A stretch of DNA of 29,888 nt. Source: a virus. The notes below the pieces were generated by a model, which saw nothing but the letters and a program-made list of their open reading frames with translations, made no database searches and was not told the origin of the DNA. Every line of letters begins with the position of its first letter. The first letter of the stretch is position 1. Made by a program: the position numbers and the translations under genes. This document shows positions 3,069 to 29,888 of this stretch, piece after piece. The stretch covers positions 1-29,888 of the IMG/VR virus record IMGVR_UViG_3300037156_000047, one strand, 5' to 3'.

Positions 3069-3096
3069 GTGTGGCCTCCGCTGGTGGGTGGTGGGG

Positions 3097-3357: not shown

Positions 3358-3367
3358 GGGGGTGCTC

Positions 3368-3928: not shown

Positions 3929-3948
3929 GGGGCGGTCCTCTCTTGGGG

Positions 3949-4434: not shown

Positions 4435-4437
4435 GGC

Positions 4438-4776: not shown

Positions 4777-4817
4777 ATCGCCCCCTTGGCCGGCCGGCCG
4801 GTGAATCTACGCTGACC

Positions 4818-5414: not shown

Positions 5415-5417
5415 GGC

Positions 5418-5729: not shown

Positions 5730-5762
5730 GGGCGTGATCCTCCGGTAGGTGGTGGGGCTGGG

Positions 5763-9254: not shown

Positions 9255-9269
9255 GGGGCGCCCTCCTGG

Positions 9270-14891: not shown

Positions 14892-14903
14892 CGGTCAACC
14901 TCC

Positions 14904-15799: not shown

Positions 15800-15866
15800 G
15801 AATATATCTCCTTGCGAAGCTGGCCGCCCCATGCGAGGCGGCCAGCGTGGCGGGTACTCCGTGGGG

Positions 15867-16631
15867 TTAGCTATCCAGCATGTCGAAGCCGGAGGGCGTC
15901 ATGGTGGTGTCCGCAATACCCTGGACATCGAGCGAATACACGATCTGGTCGGCCAGGCTGTTCTTCTGCGTAGAAACGCCCTGGTTGCGCCCGTCGTGGA
16001 GGATGAAATACCGGTTCTTGGAGTTCGGCGCCTTGCCGACGCACAGGTAGCGGTCCCGGCGGTTGGCGTCGGTAGCGTTGTACTGCAACACCAGCCCGGT
16101 GCCGTCCTTGATCCCCGCCACCATGGCGAAGTTCTGAGCGGTGGCCTCCGTGAGTCCCGCCTTGATGCCGAACGACTTGGATTGATCCGCCCAGCCAACC
16201 GGCATTTGCGACTGGTCGCAATCAAGCCCCTTGCCCTTGGCGGTGGCGCTGAACTCGACGCCGCCCTTGGTGGCGCCACGGTTCGTCCAGACACGGGTGA
16301 CGCCCGCGGCGGTGGTGACAGGCGCCGTGCCGAAAGCCGGCGTGACGATGACATTCCAGCCGACCGTGCCCCAGATGATGCTCTGGACGACCGGCAGCGC
16401 CGCGGCCTCGGCGCACAAGAAGGTGTTGACCACCGTGGAATTGCACAGCAAGTCGCCAAGCCCGATGAGCAGCGAATCGGCGGTCGACACGTTAAACGCC
16501 GTGGGGGTCGGCGTGGGAACGGTCAACGCCGATACAGTGGTGAGCGCCACATCGCGGCTCGACTGATAGAGCATGCCAGCACCAATAATGATGTTAGCGG
16601 TGTTGCTGATAAACGTGGGTTTGGGTGCCAT
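15867..16631 (-). CDS. Major tail tube protein
   Basis: A 254-aa structural protein just upstream of the tail chaperones, the standard position for the tube protein. Features are a Thr/Ala-rich N-terminal half (ISNTANIIIGAGMLYQS, ADSLLIGLGDLLCN) and a C-terminal half with a regular fold (TRVWTNRGATKGGVEFS, KSFGIKAGLTEATAQNF, DRYLCVGKAPNSKNRYF). CTGGAGGACTATCTC precedes the ATG at 16631. Subunits would stack as rings around the tape measure. Assignment rests mainly on size, order and composition; a decoration role is the main alternative. Confidence 0.7.
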   Translation of the reverse strand: MAPKPTFISNTANIIIGAGMLYQSSRDVALTTVSALTVPTPTPTAFNVSTADSLLIGLGDLLCNSTVVNTFLCAEAAALPVVQSIIWGTVGWNVIVTPAFGTAPVTTAAGVTRVWTNRGATKGGVEFSATAKGKGLDCDQSQMPVGWADQSKSFGIKAGLTEATAQNFAMVAGIKDGTGLVLQYNATDANRRDRYLCVGKAPNSKNRYFILHDGRNQGVSTQKNSLADQIVYSLDVQGIADTTMTPSGFDMLDS

Positions 16632-16723
16632 GAGATAGTCCTCCAGCGTGCTAGGGGCTGGCGGGGCACAAGGCGCGGCCGGGGGGTTACATTAGCGGCG
16701 GGTCCTCCGCACGCAGGATCGAA

Positions 16724-16903
16724 TCAGTCAAACTTGCCGCCCCATTTCTGGTGGTCGGGCTTGGGTCCGTTCAGGATCGAATCTAGGGAACCAAGCGCCC
16801 CCTTGAGGCGCCGGGAAATGGTCATGTCGGCATCGGAGTGCGCGATTGCCCGTTGAATAGAGGCGCGCGCCACCTCGATGTATTCGCGCACGGCGGCGGT
16901 CAT
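16724..16903 (-). CDS. Unknown 59-aa protein
   Basis: A small ORF starting 10 nt after the stop of the previous gene, with GAGGGG about 8 nt before the ATG at 16903. The protein is helical and charged (VREYIEVARASIQRAI, SRRLKGALGSLDSIL) with a basic, Trp-containing end (PDHQKWGGKFD). No membrane span. It is not recognised. Good spacing and coding character support it. The 92-nt gap after it (16632-16723) contains only the next gene's ribosome-binding site and no clear promoter or hairpin. Confidence 0.6.
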   Translation of the reverse strand: MTAAVREYIEVARASIQRAIAHSDADMTISRRLKGALGSLDSILNGPKPDHQKWGGKFD

Positions 16904-16913
16904 GGGCGGCCCC

Positions 16914-17363
16914 TCACAGGCGGTAATACAGGTGGATCATCTTGGAGGCGTGCAACTGGCCCGGGCTCGCCGTATCGCCTGGCACCCATCCGCCATCGGG
17001 GGAGAGGTCCATGTCGTTGAGGTAGAGCGCTGGCGTGACGGTGTGGTCTAGGCGCTTCACCCGTGCGTAGGGGTCGCTGACCCGTTGCCCGATCCACTTG
17101 TCGAAGGCGTCCTTGAGGATGTTTAGTTGCGCCGTGTCGGGCTTGTTGCCGACCGGAGGCACGCGGAGGGCGATGTCGATCACCGCCATGGTCTTGTTGC
17201 CCTGCGCCGTGGGGATGCCATCCTCAGCCCAAAAAACCCGCAGGCAACTGGCGGGGAGTGCGTCGGCGCCGTTTTGGGAGTCGATCACCACCGGCACCCA
17301 TGGCGCGATGATGCCCCAGTCAGCGATCAGGGCGGTATTGAAACTGGTGTAGGCGTGTTGCAA
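16914..17363 (-). CDS. Putative tail terminator / tail-tube joining protein
   Basis: A 149-aa protein from a TTG codon at 17363, preceded by GGGGGCGTGAG and lying one base after the stop of the glycosyltransferase gene. The pattern of an N-terminal helix and a beta core (MAVIDIALRVPPVGNK, DKWIGQRVSDPYARVKR, MIHLYYRL) suits gpU/tail-terminator-like proteins, which are often near 130-150 aa and come before the tube protein. Only position and rough fold support this, with no diagnostic motif. The TTG start is inferred from spacing. Confidence 0.5.
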   Translation of the reverse strand: MQHAYTSFNTALIADWGIIAPWVPVVIDSQNGADALPASCLRVFWAEDGIPTAQGNKTMAVIDIALRVPPVGNKPDTAQLNILKDAFDKWIGQRVSDPYARVKRLDHTVTPALYLNDMDLSPDGGWVPGDTASPGQLHASKMIHLYYRL

Positions 17364-17364
17364 C

Positions 17365-18600
17365 TCACGCCCCCTTAGACAGTCGCCCGACCATCAGTTG
17401 CCCGTAGATTTCTTCGATACCCTCGCGCCCGTGGGTGGGCTCCATCGCGAGGGCGCGAGCCAGGCACGCAATGGCCTCGTCGGCGTGGCCTAGCTTGGCG
17501 TGCGCCATGCCGAGCATCGTGTCAGGGAGCCAGGTGGTAACACCCAGGTCGACGTGGTGATTTTTGGCGCCCAGGCACTGCTTGGCGGCGTGGGCGCTCG
17601 AGCACGCCATGTTATAGGCGCCGTCCTGGAGCTGGCAATTGGCGAGGCTCACCCAGAAACCGGGGTGATCCGGTCGGCGCCACTGGCAGATTAACTCCGC
17701 CTCCATGCGAGCGCGGGTGAATTGCTTGCTGACGGCGAGCGCGCTCATGAGGTCGCTAGCGGCCTGGTCGTGTGTGTTGCTCGTGTCGGTCCATGGGTTC
17801 AGTCGGCAGTGGTGCAGCGCCAGGAGACACTGGTCGATCGCCGCCCTGGATTGCACGGCGTGGAGCGATTGGGAGAGGTAGAGGCGCGTTTGCGGGCAGA
17901 TCGGGTTGGCTTCCACCATCCCGCCGAGGATGTCGAGGTTGCGCTCGGTCTTGTTGCCGCGCTCGATGGCCTCCGGTGTGTAGCCGGCATGGGTAATGGC
18001 GAGGCCCGGCGCGCGGCCGTTGGTGGCCACTACACCATTGTCATCGACCGGAGTTTCGTGGATCGGGTTGCGGTAGCGGATGCCAGGCAGGCGCGGGAAT
18101 AGGCGGGGGGTGTCGTTGCTGACGAAGTGGCGATCGAGTGAGTCGGCGGCGGATTGGTCGGACGTCACGGTGAGATTGTAGATCGCCGGGCCGCGCCCGA
18201 GGAACTCCCGGAGGCGCGTGGCGTTGGTGACTTGGAGCATCTCGTCGGCGTCGAGGACGAGTACCCAATCGCCGGTGCAGTGGTCAAGGGCGGCGTTACG
18301 GGCTTGGGCGAAGTCGCCGCACCAAGTAAAGTGGTAGACCTCGGCGCCTGCCTTGACGGCGGCATCGTGGGCTAAGGCGCTGGCGGGGTCGACTACCACG
18401 ACCACCTGGACGACCAGGGCGCGGGCGGAGTCGATGGCGGCGCCAAGGGTATCGGCGTCGCACTCGGCGGCGATCATGGCGAGGGAGATTGTGAGCGTGG
18501 CGGTGGGGGGTGCCAGTGTGCCCGCTGTTAGTGAGCTAGGGCGGAGTCCGCCGACCTTGCGCCAGCCGTCCGTGGCGGTGTTGTGTCCTTTGGTATTCAT
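17365..18600 (-). CDS. Family 2 glycosyltransferase with probable TPR repeats
   Basis: A 411-aa enzyme-like protein; the ATG at 18600 follows GGAAGGAATACGC. It would transfer a sugar from a nucleotide sugar to a protein or glycan. The GT-A core is clear: HFTWCGDFAQARNAAL, then GDWVLVLDADEML with the metal-binding D-A-D, then RYRNPIHETPV. Residues from about 200 onward look like helical TPR-type repeats (CPQTRLYLSQSLHAV, LGMAHAKLGHADEAIACL, ALAMEPTHG). The usual N-terminal NEE and DTGSTD loops are changed (AAECDADT, VDPASALAHD), so donor binding may differ. It interrupts the head-tail joining genes, between a gp10-like protein and a terminator-like protein. Modification of the virion or the host surface is possible. 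Confidence 0.85.
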   Translation of the reverse strand: MNTKGHNTATDGWRKVGGLRPSSLTAGTLAPPTATLTISLAMIAAECDADTLGAAIDSARALVVQVVVVVDPASALAHDAAVKAGAEVYHFTWCGDFAQARNAALDHCTGDWVLVLDADEMLQVTNATRLREFLGRGPAIYNLTVTSDQSAADSLDRHFVSNDTPRLFPRLPGIRYRNPIHETPVDDNGVVATNGRAPGLAITHAGYTPEAIERGNKTERNLDILGGMVEANPICPQTRLYLSQSLHAVQSRAAIDQCLLALHHCRLNPWTDTSNTHDQAASDLMSALAVSKQFTRARMEAELICQWRRPDHPGFWVSLANCQLQDGAYNMACSSAHAAKQCLGAKNHHVDLGVTTWLPDTMLGMAHAKLGHADEAIACLARALAMEPTHGREGIEEIYGQLMVGRLSKGA

Positions 18601-18644
18601 GCGTATTCCTTCCAAGGGCGGCGCCATGCGGGCCTGGGGTGGGG

Positions 18645-19124
18645 TTACTTGGTGGCGCGCGCCTTAGCCGCCGCCACGCGCCGGGCATTGAGAATCGCCC
18701 GTTGCATCTCGGCGGTAATGACGGCGCCACTGCCCTGGATACCTCGCCCACCGGGCAGGTAGGCGGTCCAGGACCCCTTGGCGCGGCCGGTGTCCACTGG
18801 CGTGTATTTCATCATCAGCGCCATAATGTCGAGGGTGGCGCCCGAAACGCCCATCATCGCCGCTTGTTGCGGGTCGGTGGGGTAGGACTTGAGCCCTTGC
18901 CGGAGCCGGGCCTCCAAAATGGCGCGGTATTCCGCCAGGTGGGGGGCGATAATGCCGTCCGGTGCCTGTTGGCTGTGGCCTGGGGGGCCTTCCAGGTACG
19001 GCATATAGTCCAGGTTGGAGGCGATGCGCCCCTCGACGGACTTCATTATCTTGGCGGAGTCGAACAGGAGGCGCAGGGCGGGGGAGAGGATCAGTGATTG
19101 GTTCTGGAGGTTGAAGTCGGCCAT
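18645..19124 (-). CDS. HK97 gp10-like head-tail joining protein
   Basis: A 159-aa protein with the gp10-family hallmark TPVDTGRAKGSW near residues 110-121. That motif is typical of the small tail-completion/head-tail proteins found just upstream of tail tube genes. The N-terminal half (PALRLLFDSAKIMKSVEG) is helical; residues 45-60 are an extended PGHSQQAPDG segment. The C-terminus is basic and Ala-rich. CGGAGGGCGCCCC precedes the ATG at 19124. It likely sits at the neck between connector and tail tube. Confidence 0.75.
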   Translation of the reverse strand: MADFNLQNQSLILSPALRLLFDSAKIMKSVEGRIASNLDYMPYLEGPPGHSQQAPDGIIAPHLAEYRAILEARLRQGLKSYPTDPQQAAMMGVSGATLDIMALMMKYTPVDTGRAKGSWTAYLPGGRGIQGSGAVITAEMQRAILNARRVAAAKARATK

Positions 19125-19160
19125 GGGGCGCCCTCCGTGCTGGTGTCGCCGTGGCCGGTG

Positions 19161-19673
19161 CTACGCCTGCATCCGCTTCACCACCACGTCCCAGTAAAAT
19201 GTGCGGCGCCGTAGCTCGCCGGCTACGATCGTGTATTTCTCGCCGTCAATCTCCACCCACGACGCCTCTAGGAGTTGAACCCGGCTCACGGCGCGGGTGA
19301 TACACAGCCCGGCGTCGCCGACGTGCAAAGTCATCCCACCACGGTTGCGGAATTGGTCGCGTAGGTCGACGGTAGGTGGCGGGGATATCGCCGCGGCGCC
19401 ATTGTCGAGCAGGATGTAGCCACCACCGCCGGGGCCACCGACCGCGCCATCTTGGGTCACGTAGGCGCCGCCCTCGGTTAGGAGAAATCCGGCGTTGTAA
19501 ATTATGCTCAGGGTGCCAGGATCGCCGCTGGCGGCGTTGGGCGCCGACATCGTGGCGTAAGCCAGCCGGATGACGCTCTCCGCGTAGGCCATGCCGATCG
19601 CCGTGGCGGCAGTCAGGTTGGCGTCCATCACCGCCAGTGCTGCTAGGCGGGTGCTGTCGTCATAGGTAGACAT
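19161..19673 (-). CDS. Putative head closure / neck protein
   Basis: A 170-aa protein between a connector-like and a gp10-like gene, where head closure (stopper) proteins normally lie. The first 45 residues are helical (STRLAALAVMDANLTAA). A Gly-rich middle follows (GGPGGGGYILLDNGAA). The C-terminal part looks like a small beta barrel (LLEASWVEIDGEKYTIV, RRTFYWDVVVKRM), as in stopper proteins. No strong family motif is visible; the call rests on gene order and fold impression. Confidence 0.5.
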   Translation of the reverse strand: MSTYDDSTRLAALAVMDANLTAATAIGMAYAESVIRLAYATMSAPNAASGDPGTLSIIYNAGFLLTEGGAYVTQDGAVGGPGGGGYILLDNGAAAISPPPTVDLRDQFRNRGGMTLHVGDAGLCITRAVSRVQLLEASWVEIDGEKYTIVAGELRRRTFYWDVVVKRMQA

Positions 19674-19694
19674 GGCGCACTCCTGCCTGCGGTG

Positions 19695-20333
19695 TTAGCG
19701 CATCACGCGGACGCGGTAGGGGTCGAGCATGGCCTTGATATCGGCGTCGATCAGCGTGTGGTCGGAGGCGACCAACGCCGTGACCTTGCCCTTCATGCCC
19801 ATCATCGCCGCCCGCTCTAGGTAGGCGAACACGAGGTAGGCGCAGGCCGCCATGATGGCGTCGGGAACCACTACATAGCCGGCGGTGTAAGTAATCTTGA
19901 TTTCCGTGTATTGCGCCATGTAAATGCCCGGCGGGAGCCAGATCTCGCCGGTGGCGTGGTTGTCAACGATCTGCGTGACGTCGATATCTTCCCACTGGGG
20001 CGGCCCGCCGAAAATGCTGGATAGCTCGAGCAACGACGTGGCGGGGAAAACCTGCATGCTGCTAGACGCCCGGCGCGGGTAGCCATAGCGCCCTTGGGCG
20101 GTGACGTAAGGAATCGTTGCCGGCGCCAGCGCCACCGCTGGTGTATAGCTCAGCAGGACGCGGTTGCGACCGGAGGGGAGGCGGAGTTGCTCCGTGTAGG
20201 AAGTCACTGCCATGGCGCGCTTGCAGTAGGTGTCGATCAGCACCGACGCACGGAGCACGAGGTTAGGCGCCAGCACGGCGGGGAGTCCGTAGGTTGCATA
20301 GTCGGAGGTCTGGAGGTACACGCTGGGCGCCAT
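19695..20333 (-). CDS. Head-tail connector (adaptor, gp6/gp15-like)
   Basis: A 212-aa protein with the layout of adaptor proteins that bind under the portal: an N-terminal helical bundle (YGLPAVLAPNLVLRAS, VLIDTYCKRAM) that recalls the early helices of gp6/gp15-like proteins. A beta insertion follows (RLPSGRNRVLLSY, GEIWLPPGIY). The final part has the YTAGYVVVPDAIMAAC segment, which closely recalls the conserved YxAGy-P-DI/V-A helix start of phage adaptor proteins. The upstream gene is a secreted-type protein, the downstream one a putative stopper. Confidence 0.68.
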   Translation of the reverse strand: MAPSVYLQTSDYATYGLPAVLAPNLVLRASVLIDTYCKRAMAVTSYTEQLRLPSGRNRVLLSYTPAVALAPATIPYVTAQGRYGYPRRASSSMQVFPATSLLELSSIFGGPPQWEDIDVTQIVDNHATGEIWLPPGIYMAQYTEIKITYTAGYVVVPDAIMAACAYLVFAYLERAAMMGMKGKVTALVASDHTLIDADIKAMLDPYRVRVMR

Positions 20334-20363
20334 GGTGTACCTCCAGACCGTGAGCGGCTCGGT

Positions 20364-20825
20364 TTAGTTCTGGCCGAGGCCGTACCGGACGGCACATGTA
20401 CCAGCGGTCGTCGTCTTGTTCAAGATCTTCACCTTGAAGCCGGAGAATGGATAGTTCACCGTCGTGCGCAAGACCACTACCGCGCTGGTGGCGCCATCAG
20501 CCGTTACGGCCTCTTGGGTTACGGTCTGTGCCGTGTCCAGGTACGTGGTGAGCGTCGCCGTGTAGGGGTGGGTCGACGTAAACGAGACGGTCAGCGCCCT
20601 TATACCGCTGTTGACGATCGCCGCGCCGGTGGCGGTGGCCTGCGAGCCCAGCGCCGTGGCGGAGGGGATGCCGAGTTGGGTCGGCGTGAAGGTGATGATC
20701 TGGTTGGGTCCGAGTGGGGGGTGATACCCCGTATCCATGGCCTTGGCATGTGGCGCGAGGGCACCGATCATACACAGCGCCGCCGTCAGGATGGCGAGGC
20801 CAAGGCGGGTGGGTTTGTTCGACAT
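20364..20825 (-). CDS. Secreted-type 153-aa protein within the head module
   Basis: Starts at the ATG at 20825 after GAGAAGGAGATAGAA, a very good site. The N-terminus is a textbook signal peptide: basic SNKPTRLG, a hydrophobic core (AILTAALCMIGALA) and an A-K-A cleavage motif at residues 27-29. The mature part of about 124 aa is a Thr/Ala-rich beta protein (GIRALTVSFTSTHPY, FSGFKVKILNK) with one Cys. Export signals are not expected on virion proteins in a capsid operon. It might act at the host envelope, for example in exclusion of other phages, or be a decoration protein with a processed leader. No family recognised. Confidence 0.7.
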   Translation of the reverse strand: MSNKPTRLGLAILTAALCMIGALAPHAKAMDTGYHPPLGPNQIITFTPTQLGIPSATALGSQATATGAAIVNSGIRALTVSFTSTHPYTATLTTYLDTAQTVTQEAVTADGATSAVVVLRTTVNYPFSGFKVKILNKTTTAGTCAVRYGLGQN

Positions 20826-20907
20826 TTCTATCTCCTTCTCGGCGCCGTGGCGGGCCGGGTGGCGTGGCGTGAGACGGGTGGGCGCGGTGGCCGTGACCGG
20901 GTAGTGG

Positions 20908-21246
20908 CTACTTCTTCGCCGCTGCTACAGCAGGCAGCGCCGCGGGCTGTGCAGGCTCGATCTCGATGATCTCGCCACCGTCGCCATGGGTGATAACCGG
21001 GCCGACGCCGGGTCGCTGGAGGCCATAGGCGGGGACGAGGATGGTAGAGGCGATGCCTTGCTCCAGGAGCCACTTGGCGGTGCCATTGTCGTCCATGTTG
21101 GCGACGCCATCCCAGAACGTGGTGGAGACAATGCCCTTGTCGGCGCCGATCGCCGGGTGACCGGTCTCCGGGTTGAGCTTCGGGCTGTGGACGGTGTGGA
21201 GGCCGGTGCGGTGGTTGGCGGCGCCGACGAGGTACAGAACGGGCAT
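20908..21246 (-). CDS. Unknown 112-aa protein after the capsid gene
   Basis: Not recognised. GAAGGAGGGCGC precedes the ATG at 21246. A compact N-terminal beta start (PVLYLVGAANHRTGLH) leads to a segment with KWLLEQGIASTILVPAYG. The Ala-rich end (PAALPAVAAAKK) looks flexible. Its place immediately after the major capsid gene is typical for a small decoration or neck-associated protein. The following 82 nt (20826-20907) contain only the next ribosome-binding site and no obvious gene. Confidence 0.6.
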   Translation of the reverse strand: MPVLYLVGAANHRTGLHTVHSPKLNPETGHPAIGADKGIVSTTFWDGVANMDDNGTAKWLLEQGIASTILVPAYGLQRPGVGPVITHGDGGEIIEIEPAQPAALPAVAAAKK

Positions 21247-21310
21247 GCGCCCTCCTTCGGGTGATCACGCAGCGGCGCGCCCTATGGCGGGCGGCGCGCT
21301 ACGGTGAGGG

Positions 21311-22273
21311 CTAGCGGGTGAGGGTCATCACGCAGTGAGCGTAACTGGGGCCCTTGAACACCGGGGCGCCGAACAGCACCACGACGCGCTGCTGCGCCAG
21401 GTTGGCGAGCAAACCAAGCTCGAACACGCGGGGGATCTCGCCGCCGATGTGATGGAACTCGACCAGGGGCTCCGACACGATGACGATCGGGTAGTCGGTG
21501 TTCGCGCCGTTGGGCGTGGAGACCAGACCGGGATCGGGAATCAGGGGAATCAGCCCCGCCTGCGTCATGATCGCCGTGACCACCAGGCCGGAGGCGGTGG
21601 TGAGCTTGTCGACAACGCGCTTCGTCAACGTGACCTCTTGGTCGTACAGGTCCAACGCCTGCGGACTCGCATAGATGGCGGTGGGGCGGGGATTGAACGT
21701 CGTGTTACCCACCATCGCCGCGACTTGCGCCTTGATGGACGCCTCTATGCTGGCGCCAATGGCGATGGTGCCGGTGAGCGTGATCTGGGTCTCGCCGCCG
21801 ACGTACTGCGTCGTGGTCGGGAGGGTCAGGCTGGTATCCGTGCCCGCCCAGATGGCGCGGCCGGCCACGAGGGTGACGCCAGAAATGGTGTCGAGCAGAT
21901 CCTTGGCAGCCAGTGTACTGGACACGCTGGATCCCTGCTGCTTGGCGATGTCGATGTCGAATTGGGACAGCGTGATCTCGGCGCTGATCGCCTTCATGGC
22001 GAAGGACCGCTCCAGGCGGGTCGGTGCCACGCGGGTGGCGGTGATCTGGCGCGGGTTGGTGAAGCCGCCCTGGGGAATGGTGGTCTGCTCGAAGTAGCGG
22101 CTGGGGTGGCCGGTGGCGGGCTGCTTGCTGATGCGCGCCCAGATGGGCAACTCGCGCCGGACGATGTCCAGCACCTCCGGCTGATATTTGGGCGCCTCGA
22201 TGGAGCCAGGCCCCATGAAATCCGCCGCCGCCTGGAGGGATTTAAACCCGGCCGTTTTAGTATCTTCTGCCAT
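21311..22273 (-). CDS. Major capsid protein (HK97 fold)
   Basis: A 320-aa protein from the ATG at 22273, preceded by CGAAAGGAGCGCC; an in-frame ATG 42 nt upstream has no site. It follows protease and scaffold, the expected order. The pattern fits HK97-fold shells. It has an N-terminal arm, then an E-loop-like stretch (YFEQTTIPQGGFTNPRQI), a spine helix (AEITLSQFDIDIAKQQG) and a P-domain (ATGLVV-like TTASGLVVTAIMTQAG). The closing A-domain strands are YPIVIVSEPLVEFHHIGG and RVVVLFGAPVFKG. If the upstream protease is active, the mature shell may lose some N-terminal residues. The 111-nt leader contains an 11-bp direct repeat. Confidence 0.85.
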   Translation of the reverse strand: MAEDTKTAGFKSLQAAADFMGPGSIEAPKYQPEVLDIVRRELPIWARISKQPATGHPSRYFEQTTIPQGGFTNPRQITATRVAPTRLERSFAMKAISAEITLSQFDIDIAKQQGSSVSSTLAAKDLLDTISGVTLVAGRAIWAGTDTSLTLPTTTQYVGGETQITLTGTIAIGASIEASIKAQVAAMVGNTTFNPRPTAIYASPQALDLYDQEVTLTKRVVDKLTTASGLVVTAIMTQAGLIPLIPDPGLVSTPNGANTDYPIVIVSEPLVEFHHIGGEIPRVFELGLLANLAQQRVVVLFGAPVFKGPSYAHCVMTLTR

Positions 22274-22384
22274 TGTGGGCGCTCCTTTCGGGATGCGACG
22301 GGGCGCCGGGTCCAATAGGAGCGGGCTAGTAGGAGCAGTCGGCCGTGCCTGAGTGGGCGGGTGGCCGTGCCTGGTTGGGAGCGC

Positions 22385-22957
22385 CTAGTTAGGCAATGCC
22401 ATGAGCATCTGCGTGCGGGTGACGGGGTCGGTCATGCCCGCCTTGTCCATCGCCGCGGTGAGCACGGCAGCGGTCAACGGGGCGTCGTCCTTGGGGGTGA
22501 GGTCAGCACGGGAGAGCAACGCCGAGATGGCGGGAGATACCGTGACCCGCTCGGGCTGCTGCGCCTGGGCGGTGAGGCGGGCGGTGAGGCTGGCGATCTC
22601 CTTGGATTGGGCTTCCGCCGCGGCGGTGAGAGTGGCGATCGCCGGGTCGGGCGCGACGACAGCGGCGCCCTGCACCGACGCGGTGTCCTGATAGTTGTCG
22701 GCGTTGGCCTTCATGTGCGCCGCGTGCTCGCCCAGGGCGCCCATTGCCGAACTGTCACCATAGCCACTCTTAGCGGCGGCGGCGTGGAGGTCTTGCAGGC
22801 GGTCCAGGTCTTCGGTCAGCGCCGGGGCGCCTTTCTTGACGGAGGCGGCGCGGACGGGCATTGCCGCAGCGACGGCGGCGGTAATGAGCGTGCCGACCGA
22901 CGCCAGTAGGTTGGTGTTGTTTGCGGCCAGCGCGGCGGCCAGTTCTTCGGGGGTCAT
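22385..22957 (-). CDS. Nested product: scaffold protein (internal start)
   Basis: A 190-aa in-frame product from the ATG at 22957, preceded by GGAAGGAGTACACACC. It is mostly predicted helix (TPEELAAALAANNTNLL, TEDLDRLQDLHAAAA, LTAAAEAQSKEIASLTAR) without a catalytic pattern, as expected for a scaffold. The same nested, in-frame scaffold start occurs in the lambda C/Nu3 pair. The stop is 111 nt before the capsid ATG. Confidence 0.6.
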   Translation of the reverse strand: MTPEELAAALAANNTNLLASVGTLITAAVAAAMPVRAASVKKGAPALTEDLDRLQDLHAAAAKSGYGDSSAMGALGEHAAHMKANADNYQDTASVQGAAVVAPDPAIATLTAAAEAQSKEIASLTARLTAQAQQPERVTVSPAISALLSRADLTPKDDAPLTAAVLTAAMDKAGMTDPVTRTQMLMALPN

Positions 22958-23482
22958 GGTGTGTACTCCTTCCGCCGCGGCGGCTAGTCGGGTCTGCTCG
23001 TAAGCTGCGTCCCGCCTGAGCAGGATGGCGGCGCCAGTGAATCCAGTTGAAGCCTTGATGCGGGCCACGCCTGCGCGCTCCGGGGCCAAGGTCACGTCAA
23101 TTTCAAAACTCATCCCGACGTTCTCGCCGGTGGCGTTGGCCGCCTGGATCGTGCGCACGGCGTCGGGAAAGTCCTTGTCCCAGAGCACGCCGCTGACGTG
23201 GATGGCGCCTGCCTCGATTCGCGCCTCGGTGATGACGCCAATTTTCTGCCGCACGTTATGCCCGGTCAGGTCGGAGATGTAGTTCACGCCCATACCAAGG
23301 AGCGTCGGCAGAATCTTTTCAGCCACGGTGGTGGGGAGGATCACGCAGTCCCCGCCACTACCGCCGGGCGCCTTGGTGCTGGGCGTGTCGAGTTGGCAAA
23401 GTATGCCGGTGAAAGGGTGGCGGTTCGGCGCGCCGGTGTCGGGCATGGCGAGGGCCATGGCCTGGAGGGTGAATAGCTTCAT
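22385..23482 (-). CDS. Nested product: prohead protease with scaffold tail (internal start)
   Basis: An alternative in-frame product of 365 aa beginning MKLFTLQAMALAMP. AGAAGGAGGCGCC sits directly before its ATG, one of the best ribosome-binding sites in the window. The protease part has HPFTGILCQLDTPS near its start, then TGH, IGVITEARIEAGAIHV, and GMSFEI with the likely nucleophile Ser. It would cleave scaffold and shell during capsid maturation. Separate translation from this site would restore the gene structure seen in most related phages. Confidence 0.65.
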   Translation of the reverse strand: MKLFTLQAMALAMPDTGAPNRHPFTGILCQLDTPSTKAPGGSGGDCVILPTTVAEKILPTLLGMGVNYISDLTGHNVRQKIGVITEARIEAGAIHVSGVLWDKDFPDAVRTIQAANATGENVGMSFEIDVTLAPERAGVARIKASTGFTGAAILLRRDAAYEQTRLAAAAEGVHTMTPEELAAALAANNTNLLASVGTLITAAVAAAMPVRAASVKKGAPALTEDLDRLQDLHAAAAKSGYGDSSAMGALGEHAAHMKANADNYQDTASVQGAAVVAPDPAIATLTAAAEAQSKEIASLTARLTAQAQQPERVTVSPAISALLSRADLTPKDDAPLTAAVLTAAMDKAGMTDPVTRTQMLMALPN

Positions 23483-24298
23483 GGCGCCTCCTTCTAGGTC
23501 GGCAACTGCCCCAAGACCGGCGGAAATTACGGCGCAGCGGCAATTTGGATGTTTTGGCGGGGCGTCGCCGCTCCAGCCGTCCGGGGCGTCGAAGTCGGTG
23601 TCGAGGGCGCGAATCTGACCATCCATGGCGTCGCAATGCCCGCAACACCTGGCGTCCGACGTGGCGCTCCACTGCTTCAGTAGCCCCATTTCCGGGAAGT
23701 CGGCGGCCACGGCCACCATCTGCGCCAGGCGGGCGGCGTTCATCGCCGAGTTAATTTCAGTCCTGGCGATCCGCTCGAGCTTCCACGCCTCTTGCTCTAT
23801 GGACTCGCCCAGCCGTTTGGCAGCGGGTCGGATGCCCTCGCCCATCGTGAGGCTCACACCGAGGGAATCTGCGGCGGCGGTGCTGATGCCGTCGCCAAAC
23901 TTGGTCAGCAACGCCTCTTGCGGGTCGCTGATATGGAGGATGGCGTCGATCGGGAGAAAGGCCGCCACCTGGGAGGCAACCTCTGGATCGCCCACGTTGG
24001 CGGCGACGTCCTCTAGCGCGTGACCGGCGCCCATTTCGATCGCCGTGGTGGTGCTGCGGGCCAGGCTGGCGAGCATCTCCGGGATCGACTCACTGAGGAC
24101 TTGCGAGACCTCGAAAATGGTGTGGGCGGCGTGTTGGCTGCGTACCGTGTCGCCGTGGCCGGTGTCGAGTAACTTGACCAGACGGGAGACCATCTCCTTC
24201 TTGGCCCGGCGGAAGATGCGCTGGAGGCGCATCCATGCAGTGGCTTCGAGGTCGAGGGCGGCGCGGGCGTGTTCGGCGGGGAGTGGGTCGAGGGCCAT
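22385..24298 (-). CDS. MuF-prohead protease-scaffold in one 637-aa reading frame
   Basis: One uninterrupted frame from the ATG at 24298 (CGGAGGGCACACC before it). Residues 1-272 are a MuF-type head morphogenesis protein: ARTEINSAMNAARL near 176, WSATSDARCCGHCDAMDG, then the closing PKHPNCRCAV near 250. Residues from 273 are a U35-like prohead serine protease. Its candidate His is in DLTGHNVRQKIG (about 346) and its candidate Ser in ENVGMSFEI (about 396). Residues 448-637 are helical, Ala-rich scaffold-like sequence. Two internal ATGs at 23482 and 22957 carry strong sites. The three products are normally encoded by two or three separate genes. Whether the full-length fusion or the internal products dominate is unknown. 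A +1-frame TAG lies just before the first internal site, so an ancestral or sequencing frameshift is possible. Confidence 0.82.
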   Translation of the reverse strand: MALDPLPAEHARAALDLEATAWMRLQRIFRRAKKEMVSRLVKLLDTGHGDTVRSQHAAHTIFEVSQVLSESIPEMLASLARSTTTAIEMGAGHALEDVAANVGDPEVASQVAAFLPIDAILHISDPQEALLTKFGDGISTAAADSLGVSLTMGEGIRPAAKRLGESIEQEAWKLERIARTEINSAMNAARLAQMVAVAADFPEMGLLKQWSATSDARCCGHCDAMDGQIRALDTDFDAPDGWSGDAPPKHPNCRCAVISAGLGAVADLEGGAMKLFTLQAMALAMPDTGAPNRHPFTGILCQLDTPSTKAPGGSGGDCVILPTTVAEKILPTLLGMGVNYISDLTGHNVRQKIGVITEARIEAGAIHVSGVLWDKDFPDAVRTIQAANATGENVGMSFEIDVTLAPERAGVARIKASTGFTGAAILLRRDAAYEQTRLAAAAEGVHTMTPEELAAALAANNTNLLASVGTLITAAVAAAMPVRAASVKKGAPALTEDLDRLQDLHAAAAKSGYGDSSAMGALGEHAAHMKANADNYQDTASVQGAAVVAPDPAIATLTAAAEAQSKEIASLTARLTAQAQQPERVTVSPAISALLSRADLTPKDDAPLTAAVLTAAMDKAGMTDPVTRTQMLMALPN

Positions 24299-24321
24299 GG
24301 TGTGCCCTCCGATTGCCGCGC

Positions 24322-24645
24322 CTAGCTGAACATCAGGTTAGTTGCCTGTGTAAACTGGGGAAGGTTCTGGTACGGGGTGGTTGCTTGCTCCTGTGTGTCA
24401 AGGCGCCAGCCTCGGCCGATGTCGGAGCGTCGCCAGAGGTTGAGCATGCCGTCTTGGGTGATCGTGACCATCGTCCCGTCTTTGATTCTCGACACCACGA
24501 CAAGAGCGCCGTCCTGGAGCATGCCTTCGATGGTCATGTACCGGACCTCCACGCCGCCGCGGTCACGAATGGCGACAATCTCGGGGTCGAGCGGGGCGAG
24601 TGAATCTCCCCAAGGCTCGACAACCTCACCATTCATTCCGATCAT
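24322..24645 (-). CDS. Unknown 107-aa protein upstream of MuF
   Basis: Not recognised. CCGGAGGGCGCCAG precedes the ATG at 24645. It looks like a compact beta protein (VVEPWGDSLAPLDPEI, GALVVVSRIKDGTMVTI, LNLWRRSDIGRGWRL) with a polar end. It sits between portal and MuF genes, where small head-associated proteins are common. No membrane span or metal motif is visible. Confidence 0.6.
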   Translation of the reverse strand: MIGMNGEVVEPWGDSLAPLDPEIVAIRDRGGVEVRYMTIEGMLQDGALVVVSRIKDGTMVTITQDGMLNLWRRSDIGRGWRLDTQEQATTPYQNLPQFTQATNLMFS

Positions 24646-24659
24646 CTGGCGCCCTCCGG

Positions 24660-24779
24660 TTAATCAGCGAACGCCACCAGTAGGCGCTCTAGTAGGTCTG
24701 GCGCGATGATGAGCCCCGCCATCGGCGGAGGCGGCGCCAGTTGGTAGTCCAGGCGGATGCCGGTAGGGAAGTCCGCCAT
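24660..24779 (-). CDS. 39-aa micro protein
   Basis: A 39-codon ORF with a near-perfect ribosome-binding site (CAGGAGGTGGACC before ATG). The peptide has a proline run (LAPPPPMAG) followed by a short amphipathic helix (APDLLERLLVAFAD). The next gene starts 15 nt after its stop. It is too short to classify. The excellent initiation site and tight packing make translation likely. Confidence 0.55.
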   Translation of the reverse strand: MADFPTGIRLDYQLAPPPPMAGLIIAPDLLERLLVAFAD

Positions 24780-24806
24780 GGTCCACCTCCTGACGCCGGC
24801 CGGGGT

Positions 24807-25031
24807 CTAGGTGAAGTCCGTCGCCACGACCGCCAACGCCGCAGCCAGACCGCCGGAGAGGCCTGCCAGTGCGGCGAGGTCGGCGTTGATCAGCGCCGCG
24901 TCCCGGACGTGGCCCTTGATGGCGTTGAGTTGGGCGGTGATATCAATACCCGTGGCGAGGCCAAGGGTTTGATCGGCGCCAACCGCAGCGGCGATGGCGG
25001 TGGTGAGGTCTGCGAGTGCTGTTCCAGCCAT
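24807..25031 (-). CDS. Unknown 74-aa Ala-rich protein
   Basis: The ATG at 25031 is chosen because AGGAGGCTCCCC precedes it and the portal stop lies just upstream; longer forms would run into the portal gene. The protein is strongly helical (LADLTTAIAAAVGADQ, TAQLNAIKGHVRDAAL) and ends in an Ala/Leu segment (GGLAAALAVVATDF) too weak to call a membrane span. Position between portal and MuF suggests a head-assembly accessory. Not recognised. Confidence 0.6.
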   Translation of the reverse strand: MAGTALADLTTAIAAAVGADQTLGLATGIDITAQLNAIKGHVRDAALINADLAALAGLSGGLAAALAVVATDFT

Positions 25032-25041
25032 GGGGAGCCTC

Positions 25042-26430
25042 CTATTTACGGGCGGGCTTGCGGCCCTTGGGTGGGGTGTCGGGGGTGCCCTTGGCGGGCT
25101 TGTCGTCGGGGCTCGCCACCGCGGCGGGCTGGGGTGCATTTTCGTCCGGGTTGGCGCTGGGCACCGTGGCGGCGTCTCCGCGCGCCTTGGCGATCAGGAT
25201 GGCGTTTTCGGTGGCGGTGAGGGCGCCGCGCCCGCCTTCTAGCGGCTCCAGCCCTAGCTCGTGGCGGTGCTCGTCGGGGACCGTGATGCCCGCCCCGATG
25301 AGGATCTCCCACACTTGCGCCTGCGCCAAGTCGTCCTCGTTGGTGAGCCCCTCGAAGACGAACGCCAGGTCATACCAACCAAGCGCCCGGCCTATTGCCT
25401 CGCGGGTGAGATACTCCGCCAGCAGCCGCGCCATGGGGAGGATGGCGCCCGCGTCGTCGGCTTCCGCCATTTCCTCGGCGGTGGCGCGGTTGACGGAGGT
25501 TTCCAAGTTGAGTTTCTGCGGGGAGATCCCGAACGCCAGGGCGATGAGCCTGACCAGCCAGGACTGCCACGCAAGGCGGAGGTCGGCGTCGGTGCCAGCG
25601 CCAAGCTTGAGCACTTGCGCCATGGCGCCCTTGGCACCCTCGGCGGGAGATTCGGACCCGCCGATAATGGGCGTCTCGCCCTGGCCCTCGACGCTGTCCT
25701 GCCAGTAGAGCCGGAAGGCGTCCACCTGGTCGGGCGTGATCGACGCGCCCAGGTCGAGCATGAATGACGGCGCGGCGTTGCCGGCGATCTTGCTGGCGAA
25801 GTCGAAACTGGAGACGAACGCGCAAATGAGATTGAACGCCACCTCCACCGGCGTGAGACCGAATGGCGTGGAGGTGCGGGGGTTCATCCGCAGGTACATG
25901 AGTTGGTCGTTGCGGAGCGGGATGTCGTGGCCCGCATAGCCTACGTGTTGAACGTACCGAGCTTCGTTGGGGGCGCCGGTCCACGCCGGGTAGAGGCGGA
26001 TCGTGGAGCCGTCCACCGGGAACAGCCAGAGCGGGTGGAGTGGGTCGGCGCTGACGACGATCTCCACCGCACCGGCGATGGTCATCGTGTCGTCAATGAC
26101 CTGCTCCGCCAGGGAGCGGAAGGAGTCGTCTTTGTTGGGCGAGGACAGGCAGACGGTGACGATCGCCGCGCGCTTCTCCATATCCGGCGTCATCTCGAGG
26201 CCGGGCGCCGCTACGATCTTCCACGCCGCGGCGGCTACGGGGTTTTTTGTGACGTTGAGCGCCGCGCGGACTAAGGGGTGCTCCGCGAAGCGCTGGAGGT
26301 TGGCTTGTGTAGGCTTGGGGATGGGGCGTTGCGTGCCACCGCCGCGGAAGGCGTTGATCCAGGAGGGGTAGGGCTGGGTGCCGCGGGTGGGAGGTGCCGG
26401 TGCTGTCGGTGCGGCGTGGATGCGGGCCAT
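25042..26430 (-). CDS. Portal protein
   Basis: A 462-aa portal, the dodecameric DNA gate at one capsid vertex. The order terminase, portal, MuF, protease, capsid fits. The sequence follows the SPP1/HK97-type plan. It has an N-terminal region (WINAFRGGG), then wing strands (ALNVTKNPVAAAAWKI, GAVEIVVSADPLHPLW) and the LYLRMNP-like step LMYLRMNPRTSTPFGLTP. The stem/clip helices include AFGISPQKLNLETSVNRA, a very typical portal segment, and the crown helix region is EEMAEADDAGAILPMARL. The last 45 residues are a disordered Pro/Lys tail (KGRKPARK). GTAGGAGGGCTAACCC precedes the ATG. Confidence 0.93.
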   Translation of the reverse strand: MARIHAAPTAPAPPTRGTQPYPSWINAFRGGGTQRPIPKPTQANLQRFAEHPLVRAALNVTKNPVAAAAWKIVAAPGLEMTPDMEKRAAIVTVCLSSPNKDDSFRSLAEQVIDDTMTIAGAVEIVVSADPLHPLWLFPVDGSTIRLYPAWTGAPNEARYVQHVGYAGHDIPLRNDQLMYLRMNPRTSTPFGLTPVEVAFNLICAFVSSFDFASKIAGNAAPSFMLDLGASITPDQVDAFRLYWQDSVEGQGETPIIGGSESPAEGAKGAMAQVLKLGAGTDADLRLAWQSWLVRLIALAFGISPQKLNLETSVNRATAEEMAEADDAGAILPMARLLAEYLTREAIGRALGWYDLAFVFEGLTNEDDLAQAQVWEILIGAGITVPDEHRHELGLEPLEGGRGALTATENAILIAKARGDAATVPSANPDENAPQPAAVASPDDKPAKGTPDTPPKGRKPARK

Positions 26431-26442
26431 GGGTTAGCCCTC

Positions 26443-26616
26443 CTACGGACGCGGTGGCGTTGGGTCCTGCTTGATGTGGATGTCGATCCCATTGCGGTCG
26501 AGCGCCTGCGCCCAACGCCAGCCAACGGCAGCGGCGAGCGTGGCGGCGAGCGTGGCGAGCATACCGGAGGCGAGGACACCCAGCCCGAAGCCGAGGGCGA
26601 TGGGGGCTAGGTGCAT
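26443..26616 (-). CDS. 57-aa single-span membrane protein
   Basis: Starts at the ATG at 26616, overlapping the end of the preceding small ORF by 10 nt, with GGCGAGG upstream. Residues 4-34 form a long hydrophobic helix (IALGFGLGVLASGMLATLAA) followed by RWAQALDRNGIDIHI and a Pro-rich tail. It is the largest of four tiny ORFs between terminase and portal. Function unknown; a membrane role early in assembly or DNA exit is possible but unsupported. Confidence 0.55.
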   Translation of the reverse strand: MHLAPIALGFGLGVLASGMLATLAATLAAAVGWRWAQALDRNGIDIHIKQDPTPPRP

Positions 26617-26717
26617 GGGTGGGCCTCGCCGATCGTGGTGGGACGGGGTTCTTTCCATGCGGCCTTGAATGCAGCGAGTTGGACGGCGTCCACTTCGGCG
26701 CGGATGGCGTTGTGCAT
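26607..26717 (-). CDS. 36-aa micro protein, third ORF of the 86-bp array
   Basis: The ATG at 26717 is preceded by AGGTAAGCGCC, the same initiation cassette that precedes the two upstream micro-ORFs. The TAA inside it ends the previous ORF. The peptide is soluble and helical (NAIRAEVDAVQLAAFKAAW) with a basic Pro-rich end. It differs from the two hydrophobic members, so only the cassette is shared. Not recognised. Confidence 0.5.
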   Translation of the reverse strand: MHNAIRAEVDAVQLAAFKAAWKEPRPTTIGEAHPCT

Positions 26718-26722
26718 GGCGC

Positions 26723-26803
26723 TTACCTCAGGATGTCAAAGATGACCAGACCGCCGACCAACATGCCGACGGCGAAACTGATAGCGCACCAGGCGAGTAG
26801 CAT
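26723..26803 (-). CDS. 26-aa micro membrane protein (array unit 2)
   Basis: A 26-codon ORF with one hydrophobic helix (AISFAVGMLVGGLVIF) ending D-I-L-R. AGGTAACCGCC comes before its ATG, with the previous stop codon TAA embedded in it. Same length, same ILR end and same spacing as the upstream unit, so the two are probably diverged copies. A real but unstudied membrane micro protein is the favoured reading. Confidence 0.5.
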   Translation of the reverse strand: MLLAWCAISFAVGMLVGGLVIFDILR

Positions 26804-26808
26804 GGCGG

Positions 26809-26889
26809 TTACCTCAGGATTGCGGCGGCAGTGAGGATGCCGATTGCGTACGCTATGCCCCATCGCACGAGGTAGCCCGTCCCATTCAT
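26809..26889 (-). CDS. 26-aa micro membrane protein (array unit 1)
   Basis: A 26-codon ORF directly after the large terminase. Its ribosome-binding site AAGAGGTAAGCGCC contains the terminase stop codon, so the two are translationally coupled. The peptide has a short polar start (NGTGYLVRW) and a hydrophobic helix (GIAYAIGILTAAAI) ending I-L-R. It shares length and C-terminus with the next unit. Confidence 0.5.
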   Translation of the reverse strand: MNGTGYLVRWGIAYAIGILTAAAILR

Positions 26890-26894
26890 GGCGC

Positions 26895-28136
26895 TTACCT
26901 CTTGATGGATCCGAACGAGAAACCGGCGGAGGGCGCCTTACCGTACAGTGTGAACTCTCGATATCGCAGGGCGTCCATGCCGTGGTCGTTGACCTTGAGC
27001 GGCTTGTCTTCGCCCTTTATAATGGCCTTGGGGTCCCACGAGTAAGAGCCAAATTCCTTGACGAGGTGCGGGCACTTCTCGCGGTGAATCTTGACCTTGC
27101 CATCTGTCAGGCGGTTGGACACCACCCGAATACCTGGCACCACGTCATTGTCTGCCGATGTGATGCCCTTGAATCCGTCCTTGCGAAGTTGGGCCGCCAT
27201 GGACGAGGCGGAAGGATCGATGTAAATGTGGCGCGGTAGGCGGTTGCCTAGAAACTTGATCAACGCCTGCGAGTATTCGCCGTCCGTCAGTTGGCGCATC
27301 GTGTCGCGCCCGCAGTGGCGGTATTCGTCGACATACCAGCCCACATCAGCCTTGGCGCCAACCAAGAGCGCGTGAAAAGGGTTCTGTGTGCCGTAGTCAA
27401 GCGTGAGGTCAAACCAGTCAAACGCCGCAGGCTGGTCGACATCATCAAACCCATGGGCGTCTAGGTCGAATGAGTCGTAGATGACGCCTTCGGCCATGAC
27501 CCACATGCCCTTGACCATGCGCTGAAACCACAACCCGGTGAAGCTGGCGCGGATGTCGGCCTTGTATTCTTCGGACAGGGCAAAGTTATCGTCTAGGTCG
27601 AAGTGGTGAACGGTCACGCGCCCGGAGGTTAGCGCCGCCTCGTTGCCGATGTAATCCTCATGGACCCAGTGAAACGGCGAGTCCGGGTTGGTCGTCCAGA
27701 TGGCACGCCCGGCTCCCTTGGAGCAACGAAGGATCGACTGCTTCACCACCACCTGGGGGATCTGCGTCACCTCGTCAATGTAGCAGCCTTCGACCGTCAT
27801 GCCGCGGATGCGTTTTTCGGCGCCAACGTCCCGAGCGCCAACACAGTGAATGGTACGGCCGAACAGGTAGAGGGTGTGATCGACGTAGCGGGAGTGCTCC
27901 GGGCCGACCATATCCAGTAAGTCGCTTATGACGTTGCGGTACAGGGTATCGCCCGTGACGCCTAGCATCAGGAGCCGCCCACCCTCGGACGTTTCCGACA
28001 TGACGTAGATCACCCAGCGAATGATACTGGCGATCGTCTTGCCCGACCGGACGGCGCCTTCAAGGATGTTAATTCGGGTGAGTGGCGCCTCGATCACGTC
28101 GAGTTGCTTGGGGCTAAAGTCGCAGTAAGTGAACAC
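26895..28136 (-). CDS. Terminase large subunit
   Basis: A 413-aa DNA-packaging motor. The GTG at 28136 overlaps the small subunit stop (TAGTG); the frame continues upstream but that part is antisense-like and overlaps the small subunit. The ATPase has Walker A EGAVRSGKT near residues 26-34 and Walker B CYIDEV with its Asp-Glu near 120. A coupling-like TTNPDSPFHW follows. The RNase H-like nuclease has Asp in LTLDYGTQNPF (about 246), in YIDPSASSM (about 306) and in NDHGMDALRY (about 387). All active-site acids look present. It cuts concatemers and pumps DNA through the portal. Length is a little under the usual 420-500 aa. Confidence 0.93.
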   Translation of the reverse strand: MFTYCDFSPKQLDVIEAPLTRINILEGAVRSGKTIASIIRWVIYVMSETSEGGRLLMLGVTGDTLYRNVISDLLDMVGPEHSRYVDHTLYLFGRTIHCVGARDVGAEKRIRGMTVEGCYIDEVTQIPQVVVKQSILRCSKGAGRAIWTTNPDSPFHWVHEDYIGNEAALTSGRVTVHHFDLDDNFALSEEYKADIRASFTGLWFQRMVKGMWVMAEGVIYDSFDLDAHGFDDVDQPAAFDWFDLTLDYGTQNPFHALLVGAKADVGWYVDEYRHCGRDTMRQLTDGEYSQALIKFLGNRLPRHIYIDPSASSMAAQLRKDGFKGITSADNDVVPGIRVVSNRLTDGKVKIHREKCPHLVKEFGSYSWDPKAIIKGEDKPLKVNDHGMDALRYREFTLYGKAPSAGFSFGSIKR

Positions 28137-28654
28137 TAGCCCCGCCCCGCGTTCCGCTTGCTCTGCTGAATGGCGTCGACCATATTTTGTAGCGGGTTGC
28201 CACTTGGCGCCGCCTGCAATCCGTCCTTCATGCCTAGCGATAGTCGGCCCATCTTGTCGGCGGCGGCCAGGGCGGCGATGTAGTCCTTGAGATCTTTCGG
28301 CGCGTTGAGGAACGCCACCTCCACGATCTCCGAGCCCTCCTTGGTGAAGCCGACAACCGATTGTGTCTTGCCTGGGTTCATCCATTCGGCGTAAAGGGCG
28401 CGGGCCTGGGCGGCAAGGCGGAGTGATTCGCGGGTCCATTCGGTGGCGTCGGTGAGTAACTCCTGCGCTATACGATGCGGCAATTCCGCCGACACCCTAC
28501 CGACAACCTGCCGACAGTCGGAAACCCACGATTCAGACTTTGCGCGCCTTTCGATGGTGCGGCTTGATATACCATATTTGTCGGCAAGCTTTCGGTAGCT
28601 CGTGCCGCCCTTTAAATATTCGGCCTTGATGGCTGTCCAGTTCGGGCTTGCCAC
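28136..28654 (-). CDS. Terminase small subunit
   Basis: A 172-aa DNA-recognition subunit of the packaging enzyme. The GTG at 28654 follows GGGAGGCGCCTGT. The N-terminus holds a helix-turn-helix (SYRKLADKYGISSRTIERRA), the usual DNA-binding part, which would recognise the packaging site. The rest is helical (LPHRIAQELLTDATEW, AALAAADKMGRLSLGM) for ring assembly, ending in a basic tail. It overlaps the large subunit by one base. Packaging sites often lie in or near this gene, but I could not identify one. Confidence 0.85.
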   Translation of the reverse strand: MASPNWTAIKAEYLKGGTSYRKLADKYGISSRTIERRAKSESWVSDCRQVVGRVSAELPHRIAQELLTDATEWTRESLRLAAQARALYAEWMNPGKTQSVVGFTKEGSEIVEVAFLNAPKDLKDYIAALAAADKMGRLSLGMKDGLQAAPSGNPLQNMVDAIQQSKRNAGRG

Positions 28655-28725: not shown

Positions 28726-29109
28726 TTAGGAAGCCGCCCGCAGTGCAGCTGCGTAAGCTTCAGCAACGGTAATGCGGGGGCACGCCTGGAGCCTGCCAGA
28801 TCGGCGCGCGCGCTCCGCCTGTGTGTCGGGGCTCTCGTCGCGGTGGTGATAGTCCGTCCGCCGGTCGGAGCAGTCGCCGGGGAATAGGGCGATGAGGGCC
28901 GCCAGGGCGGGGACGAGTCGGCGGGCGGCAAGGATGGCGGGATCTTCGCCGGTGGCGGGCACGAAGGCCGCGGGCGTGAGGTTAATGGTGCGGGTGGCGA
29001 GGTGCTGGCGGCTGACGACGGGCTTGGATGCGGCCTTTCGAGCCGCCTGCCTTTGCTTGTCGGTGACGACCACGGCGGCTAGTTGTTCGGCGATCTTTGA
29101 TGCGCGCAT
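28726..29109 (-). CDS. Unknown 127-aa basic protein
   Basis: The ATG at 29109 is chosen because GGAGGCCAGT precedes it; the longer form would start inside the terminator. Not recognised. The N-terminal half is basic and helical (ASKIAEQLAAVVVTDKQ, ARKAASKPVVSRQHLA), the middle is hydrophobic (ARRLVPALAALIALF), and a charged stretch follows (DRRTDYHHRDESPD). It could bind nucleic acid. It lies between the regulator and the small terminase, where HNH nucleases or regulators often occur, but no HNH motif is visible. Confidence 0.55.
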   Translation of the reverse strand: MRASKIAEQLAAVVVTDKQRQAARKAASKPVVSRQHLATRTINLTPAAFVPATGEDPAILAARRLVPALAALIALFPGDCSDRRTDYHHRDESPDTQAERARRSGRLQACPRITVAEAYAAALRAAS

Positions 29110-29124
29110 ACTGGCCTCCAATGC

Positions 29125-29154
29125 AAAAAGACCCTGAGCAGCAGCTCTTGGTCT
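29125..29154 (-). terminator. Terminator between the regulator and the late operon
   Basis: Read on the minus strand: AGACC pairs with GGTCT, with an inner GAGC/GCTC stem and a TGCT loop separated by a small internal loop. Five T residues follow. It lies about 65 nt after the regulator's stop and only about 16 nt before the next ATG. Late gene transcription entering from the mapped promoter must pass this point. The rest of the gap 29110-29216 contains no further recognisable element. Confidence 0.6.
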
Positions 29155-29216
29155 TCGGTGTTTCCTCACATAAGCACGCCAAGGGCACGCCCAGCGTCAC
29201 CCTTGATTGCTCAATA

Positions 29217-29405
29217 TTACCCCGTAAGTCGGGCTATTTTGCGGATAGCAGCATAATAAGTTTTATGTACGCATTGCGGAGATATGCCCATAACGCGGGC
29301 GGCCTGGCTGTATGACAGGTTTTTTGCGGCGATAAGTTCGAACGCCTCGCGCTGGCGAGCGGTCAACTTAGCGAAGGCCTCGGGGGGAGTGAGGGCGGGT
29401 AGCAT
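29217..29405 (-). CDS. Sigma-70 region 4-like / RinA-type small regulator
   Basis: A 62-aa protein beginning MLPALTPPEAFAKL. The ATG at 29405 is preceded by GTGGAGGGACGT; an in-frame ATG at 29453 lies upstream of the promoter -10 box and cannot be used from it. Residues about 15-58 match a sigma region 4-type helix-turn-helix: LTARQREAFELIAAK, then SYSQAARVMGISPQCVHK, then TYYAAIRKIARL. Such small proteins control late transcription in several phage groups and sit just upstream of the small terminase, as here. There is no sigma region 2, so it would act as an activator, not a complete sigma factor. Confidence 0.75.
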   Translation of the reverse strand: MLPALTPPEAFAKLTARQREAFELIAAKNLSYSQAARVMGISPQCVHKTYYAAIRKIARLTG

Positions 29406-29437
29406 ACGTCCCTCCACATGCGCGCGCGCACGAGGCC

Positions 29438-29466
29438 AGTATACCCCAAGCAAGCGTGAGTTTCAC
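29438..29466 (-). promoter_or_regulatory. Sigma-70-type promoter for the regulator/late genes
   Basis: On the minus strand, GTGAAA (29466-29461, 4 of 6 matches to the -35 consensus) is 17 nt from TATACT (29443-29438, 5 of 6). Transcription would start near 29431, giving a leader of about 25 nt before the GGAGGG site and ATG at 29405. A run of alternating CG/CA (29419-29431) lies at the start point. This is the only convincing phage promoter I see on that strand. Confidence 0.6.
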
Positions 29467-29526
29467 GGTATCGCCTGATGGCGTGGTCTGGGATGTGGCG
29501 GGCCATTTACCGAATGCCCCGTAAAG

Positions 29527-29547
29527 CCCCCGCCTTTAGGCGTGGGG
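29527..29547 (+). repeat. Left-end hairpin of the tnpB element
   Basis: CCCC (29527-29530) pairs with GGGG (29544-29547), C31 with G42 (last two digits), and GCC with GGC around a TTTA loop, with a bulged T at 29543. It is the twin of the right-end hairpin at 840-860. The inner stem bases are swapped but still paired, so structure is conserved rather than sequence. A second hairpin (29559-29563 with 29568-29572) follows. The element's outer edge is probably between about 29505 and 29526. Confidence 0.7.
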
Positions 29548-29608
29548 ATATAAGGGGCGCGGCGTGAGCCGCTGTAACGTCCAGCCGAAAACTTAAGCGA
29601 TTCTGGGG

Positions 29609-29620: not shown

Positions 29621-29888
29621 GTGCTTAAAACCTTTCAGTACAGAATCTACCCGACGAAATCCCAAGAAACGGCGCTCGACGCCGCCCTTCGGGCCTGCCG
29701 GTGGGTGTATAATCAAGTTCTCGAAGCCCGCAAGACCGCCTGGGAGGCGGATAAGGTGAGCTTGAGTCTGTTCGATACGATGAAGTTCCTGCCCGGCTGG
29801 AAGGCCGATCATGACTTTCTCAAGAAAGCGCACTCGCAGACGCTTCAAAACGTCTGTGTGCGCGTTGACTTGGCGATGAAAGCCTTTT
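29621..29888 (+). CDS. tnpB: TnpB RNA-guided nuclease, N-terminal part (continues at base 1)
   Basis: The first 89 codons of tnpB, from GTG at 29621. The start FQYRIYPTKSQETALDAAL and the segment RACRWVYNQVLEARKTAW are the standard N-terminal helix-turn-helix-like opening of TnpB. Before the edge comes LQNVCVRVDLAMKAF, which normally continues FFRRCKAGE-PGFPRF. That continuation stands at the left edge. The last base of the window is codon position 1 and the first two bases are positions 2 and 3, so the join is in frame. Direct joining gives three Phe where relatives usually have two, which could be natural or a 3-nt overlap at the cut. Confidence 0.9.
   Translation, partial: MLKTFQYRIYPTKSQETALDAALRACRWVYNQVLEARKTAWEADKVSLSLFDTMKFLPGWKADHDFLKKAHSQTLQNVCVRVDLAMKAF

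Follow-up and report, generated by a model that had tools for sequence, protein, structure and literature searches.

The window, by which is meant the whole stretch of DNA analysed here, is an entire IMG/VR record of 29,888 nucleotides (G000:C1:1-29888). It holds the late genes of a temperate-type siphophage, every one of them on the minus strand and running from 28654 down to 973, and a single plus-strand gene, tnpB, which is cut by both edges of the record. Its features, in order of position, are as follows:

1..5, no strand: left side of the break, TTTTT.
1..836, plus strand: 3' part of tnpB, comprising two bases (TT), 277 codons and a TAG stop, with domains PF01385 and PF07282.
837..869, plus strand: right end (RE) of the IS605-type element and presumed 3' end of an omega RNA, AAGCCCCCGGCTTGAGCCGTGGGGAGTAGTCAC.
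884..916, no strand assigned: strong hairpin past the last late gene (fold z -3.88).
973..28654, minus strand: late module, with TerS, TerL, portal, MuF-like protein, capsid candidate, connectors, glycosyltransferase, tape measure, tail genes and M15 endolysin.
28726-29169, minus strand: ORF of unknown kind, between the terminase operon and the tnpB element.
29217-29453, minus strand: helix-turn-helix-like ORF (by eye), in the same interval.
29516..29558, plus strand: left end (LE) of the IS605-type element, a nested imperfect hairpin, GCCCC..AGCCCCCGCC-TTTA-GGCGTGGGG..GGGGC.
29621..29888, plus strand: 5' part of tnpB, comprising a GTG start, 89 codons and one base (T), with the HTH_OrfB_IS605 domain (PF12323, E 3.5e-16).
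29885..29888, no strand: right side of the break, TTTT, the same letters as the start of the left edge.

Within the late module the tape measure protein is 1873 aa long, and the candidate major capsid protein is named from homology to L113 and L114 together with its position. The hairpin at 884..916 is a probable terminator of the minus-strand late operon. A glycosyltransferase-like gene (17365-18627, minus strand), matching PHROG 13126 at E 2.6e-15, lies inside the structural operon with connector genes on one side and tail genes on the other. Between TerL and portal, at 26714-26906 on the minus strand, a 21-nt sequence occurs three times at an exact 86-nt spacing, each copy with a stretch resembling a ribosome-binding site and an ATG on that strand; the array looks like three tandem tiny genes of about 28 codons each. 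These repeats, at about 26.7-26.9 kb, had been considered as a packaging signal, an idea dropped on finding that the copies sit at the apparent starts of the tiny genes. No ORFs other than the two at 28726..29453 separate the terminase operon from the tnpB element; the second of the two is short, carries a helix-turn-helix that by eye is like the last domain of sigma factors, and stands upstream of the terminase operon, where it may encode a late-gene activator. No phage DNA match to 28100-29888 was found.

The left edge begins with the two bases (TT) that complete the codon begun by the last T of the right edge, as the ORFs confirm and the original prediction had described, and a literal join of 29888 to 1 is in frame and open over 367 aa. 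Placed on the PHROG 506 profile, the right piece covers positions 6-93, and the left piece puts its residue 4 on position 97 and hence its residue 1 on position 94; the pieces abut without a gap, with exactly one surplus residue, that of the split codon. The continuity of family sequence over the break that had been predicted is thus seen at profile positions 93 and 94, which meet, and the left piece at 1-836 is as integral to the finding as the piece at 29621-29888 that was first reported. The surplus falls in a run of T: the edges share exactly four T (...GCCTTTT / TTTTTCGCC), no repeat longer than 4 nt is common to both, and no homopolymer of at least 7 occurs elsewhere in the window. Where the literal join reads three Phe, all seven relatives of a first TnpB alignment (42-48% identical in tblastn searches) have two, and in a larger alignment of 85 relatives, at up to 59% identity, not one has anything inserted between the two aromatic residues. 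The absence of a third aromatic residue from all 85 favours a 3-nt overlap at the linearisation point, which the original prediction had raised as possible; judged from these alignments, such an overlap would be the better reading of the break, is well supported, and restores the family FF motif. Most simply, the true sequence at the break would be about six T, and a circle would be about 29,885 bp.

Joining the edges also brings together the parts of one mobile element. The helix-turn-helix domain from the right, and the OrfB and zinc-finger/RuvC domains from the left, come together in one protein, in which the RuvC catalytic residues D185, E269 and D348 (numbered in the 367-aa join) are invariant in the first alignment. 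The LE hairpin has a fold z of -2.34, and nested hairpins like it precede several related tnpB genes by eye. The RE motif was found downstream of tnpB in 43 of the 85 relatives, against 68 of 1760 control stretches, and one relative (L120) carries it with one substitution. LE and RE, which have 21 of 24 bases in common, occur once each and at opposite edges; as the LE lies at the right edge and the matching RE at the left, the join makes one whole element. The TTTAC at 29506-29510 is likely to be its insertion motif. The Y1 transposase tnpA (PF01797) is absent from the record, which fits the tnpB-only class, and the joined edges make an intact tnpB-only IS200/IS605-type element that is ordinary in itself. 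By analogy with known TnpB systems such as ISDra2, its protein would be a nuclease guided by an RNA that ends at the RE, with the flanking DNA from position 870 presumably serving as the guide. The element lies in the interval that separates the end of the late operon from the point where the terminase operon starts. No empty insertion site was found for it, because no relative is close enough in DNA, and the best match to the TnpB among genome contigs, at 50% in a Parachlamydiales MAG, gave no clue to the host.

Could the two edges hold unrelated partial tnpB genes that happen to fit? The gene is common, and contigs often break in it: of 80 related viral contigs, five (L125, L143, L194, L195 and L196) end in tnpB, at residues 11 to 37. 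One attempted test of single origin, the similarity of half to half across TnpB proteins, came out positive yet was dropped as too weak (Spearman 0.36); its outcome, in which 13% of mismatched halves scored as well, is compatible with coincidence. However, if two copies of a 1104-nt gene are cut independently and uniformly, the chance that the pieces abut within 0 to -4 nt is about 0.0046; among the five IMG/VR contigs that end inside a related tnpB, none has a tnpB piece at the opposite end; and frame, register and strand all fit, as do LE and RE. The original prediction had judged it unlikely that two independent copies would break at the same codon by chance, and on these figures coincidence is very improbable. 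It is almost certain that a single tnpB sequence supplied both edges, and the intact 367-aa gene that had been proposed holds, with its domains, catalytic residues and both ends in place.

Whether one sequence means one circle is a separate matter. When a short-read k-mer assembler closes a circle, the two ends of the contig are left repeating each other over one k-mer length, and circularity is called from a direct terminal repeat at a threshold of at least 20 bp (PMC8116208). The window has no direct terminal repeat of at least 20 bp, its longest common edge being 4 nt, and an edge so short could come from a closed path only if overlaps had been trimmed, by the assembler or elsewhere in the pipeline, or if a long-read assembler had been used.

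TnpB, TerL, endolysin, capsid and portal queries were run against viral contigs in search of close relatives. These single-sequence searches returned no close relative, the TerL alignment reaching 65%. That identity is shared by two contigs, IMGVR_UViG_3300038443_001643 (G001; loci L033/L116/L117) and IMGVR_UViG_3300037467_002200 (G002; locus L034), several of whose tail proteins are 36-47% identical to those of the window. The first has 42,979 bases and a 248-bp imperfect terminal repeat with one mismatch; the second, 19,489 bases from another data set, crosses the junction of the first at 100%. Together, the repeat and the crossing contig give G001 a circular map of about 42.7 kb, and no relative nearer to the window could be closed. 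With ORFs chosen by third-position GC, its genome being high in GC, G001 has about 21 kb between a holin-like gene and TerS, including a serine recombinase, an S24-type repressor and an MT-A70 methyltransferase. Another relative (G004, TerL 57%) has an integrase, a HicB-type protein and a repressor beyond its M15 endolysin. The Streptomyces phage SV1 group is more distant (TerL about 42%) and shares with the window the head order of terminase, portal, head morphogenesis and major head genes, but in SV1, at 37.6 kb, the endolysin is followed by about 20 kb devoted to regulation, integration and replication, with an integrase, repressors, a replication initiator and SSB, a block that the window lacks. 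In its place stand the tnpB element and the two small ORFs, with about 0.95 kb of non-tnpB DNA. Neither a tyrosine integrase (PF00589) nor a serine recombinase (PF00239) was found in the window, nor was any integrase, recombinase, repressor or replication gene; the integration, regulation and replication block that runs from the lysis genes to the terminase in complete genomes of the SV1 and G001 kind is missing, and a complete phage of that kind cannot close here unless its early region has been lost.

These observations bear on the reading that the record is a real and complete phage genome of 29.9 kb, circular or circularly permuted. The exact join speaks for it, as does a relative, G001, that maps as a circle; against it stand the lack of a terminal repeat of at least 20 bp and of every integrase, recombinase, repressor and replication gene looked for, of which relatives keep about 20 kb at that position. 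Such a genome is improbable. The proposal that the sequence is probably a circle thus survives in part: the edges belong to one tnpB and a closed assembly path is likely, whereas a complete physical circle is doubtful, given the 4-nt edge and the missing early block. To label the record a complete circular phage genome would be unwarranted without reads.

The preferred account, to which we give a probability of about 0.62, is that of a closed path through tnpB in an incomplete phage. The edges would hold one half each of a single tnpB sequence; the assembly path would have closed on itself at about 29,885 bp and been cut in a run of six T inside the gene, leaving the 3-nt overlap. Closure would on this account be a property of the assembly graph, the tnpB element in it being either a single collapsed copy or a single real one, and the closed path would not be a complete phage genome. 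It might have arisen in one of two ways: Firstly, two tnpB copies may flank the late module of a larger phage, of about 45-50 kb, and have been collapsed by the assembler. Secondly, recombination between two such copies may have produced a deletion circle. The lack of an early region is better accounted for by a collapsed two-copy phage or a deletion circle than by a complete phage of 30 kb. The two-copy version nevertheless has a low prior, because near-identical tnpB pairs in one phage were unseen among 80 loci, where a single contig had two copies, only 68% alike in DNA.

It is worth noting that the record would look no different under a two-copy arrangement, whether the copies had been collapsed or had both broken at one base, a rival that the original prediction did not weigh. 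In its uncollapsed form the window would be a linear part of some larger phage or prophage with identical or near-identical direct tnpB copies on either side, both ends having broken at the same T run in mid-repeat, and there would be no circle even in the assembly graph. This would account for the missing early genes and for the absence of an overlap of k-mer length, and the extra T would follow if both ends had been read partly into the same homopolymer; tnpB is, moreover, mobile, and 5/80 related loci end inside it. However, contigs built from de Bruijn graphs normally end at repeat borders, not in mid-repeat at the same base; identical tnpB pairs are unseen in relatives; and the tnpB peptides of this record match no other viral contig. 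We regard a linear piece as unlikely, though the foremost of the alternatives to a closed path.

The closed path through tnpB carries a practical lesson, in that a phage fragment can pass for a complete circular genome when it closes at a mobile element. A physical ring would be a defective phage form not usually seen in metagenomes. There is a slender chance of a real 29.9-kb circle, self-maintained or helper-dependent, with only the late (structural, packaging and lysis) genes of a temperate phage and an RNA-guided nuclease element. Ordinary phage satellites lack structural genes, and a late-gene-only circle, if true, would be their reverse. Either way, edges interrupted in tnpB merit checking before contigs are called complete.

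Among known systems, the element itself is best compared with ISDra2 of Deinococcus radiodurans, with whose TnpB (PDB 8bf8, 8h1j) the joined protein aligns over its full length (E 4e-52), the D/E/D residues of RuvC and the zinc-finger cysteines included. Like ISDra2 and the tnpB-only (IS1341-type) members of IS200/IS605, it has subterminal hairpins at its left and right ends; it differs in that tnpB is split by the contig ends and the record is without tnpA. ISDra2 inserts at TTGAT, whereas the insertion motif here is probably of the TTTAC type.
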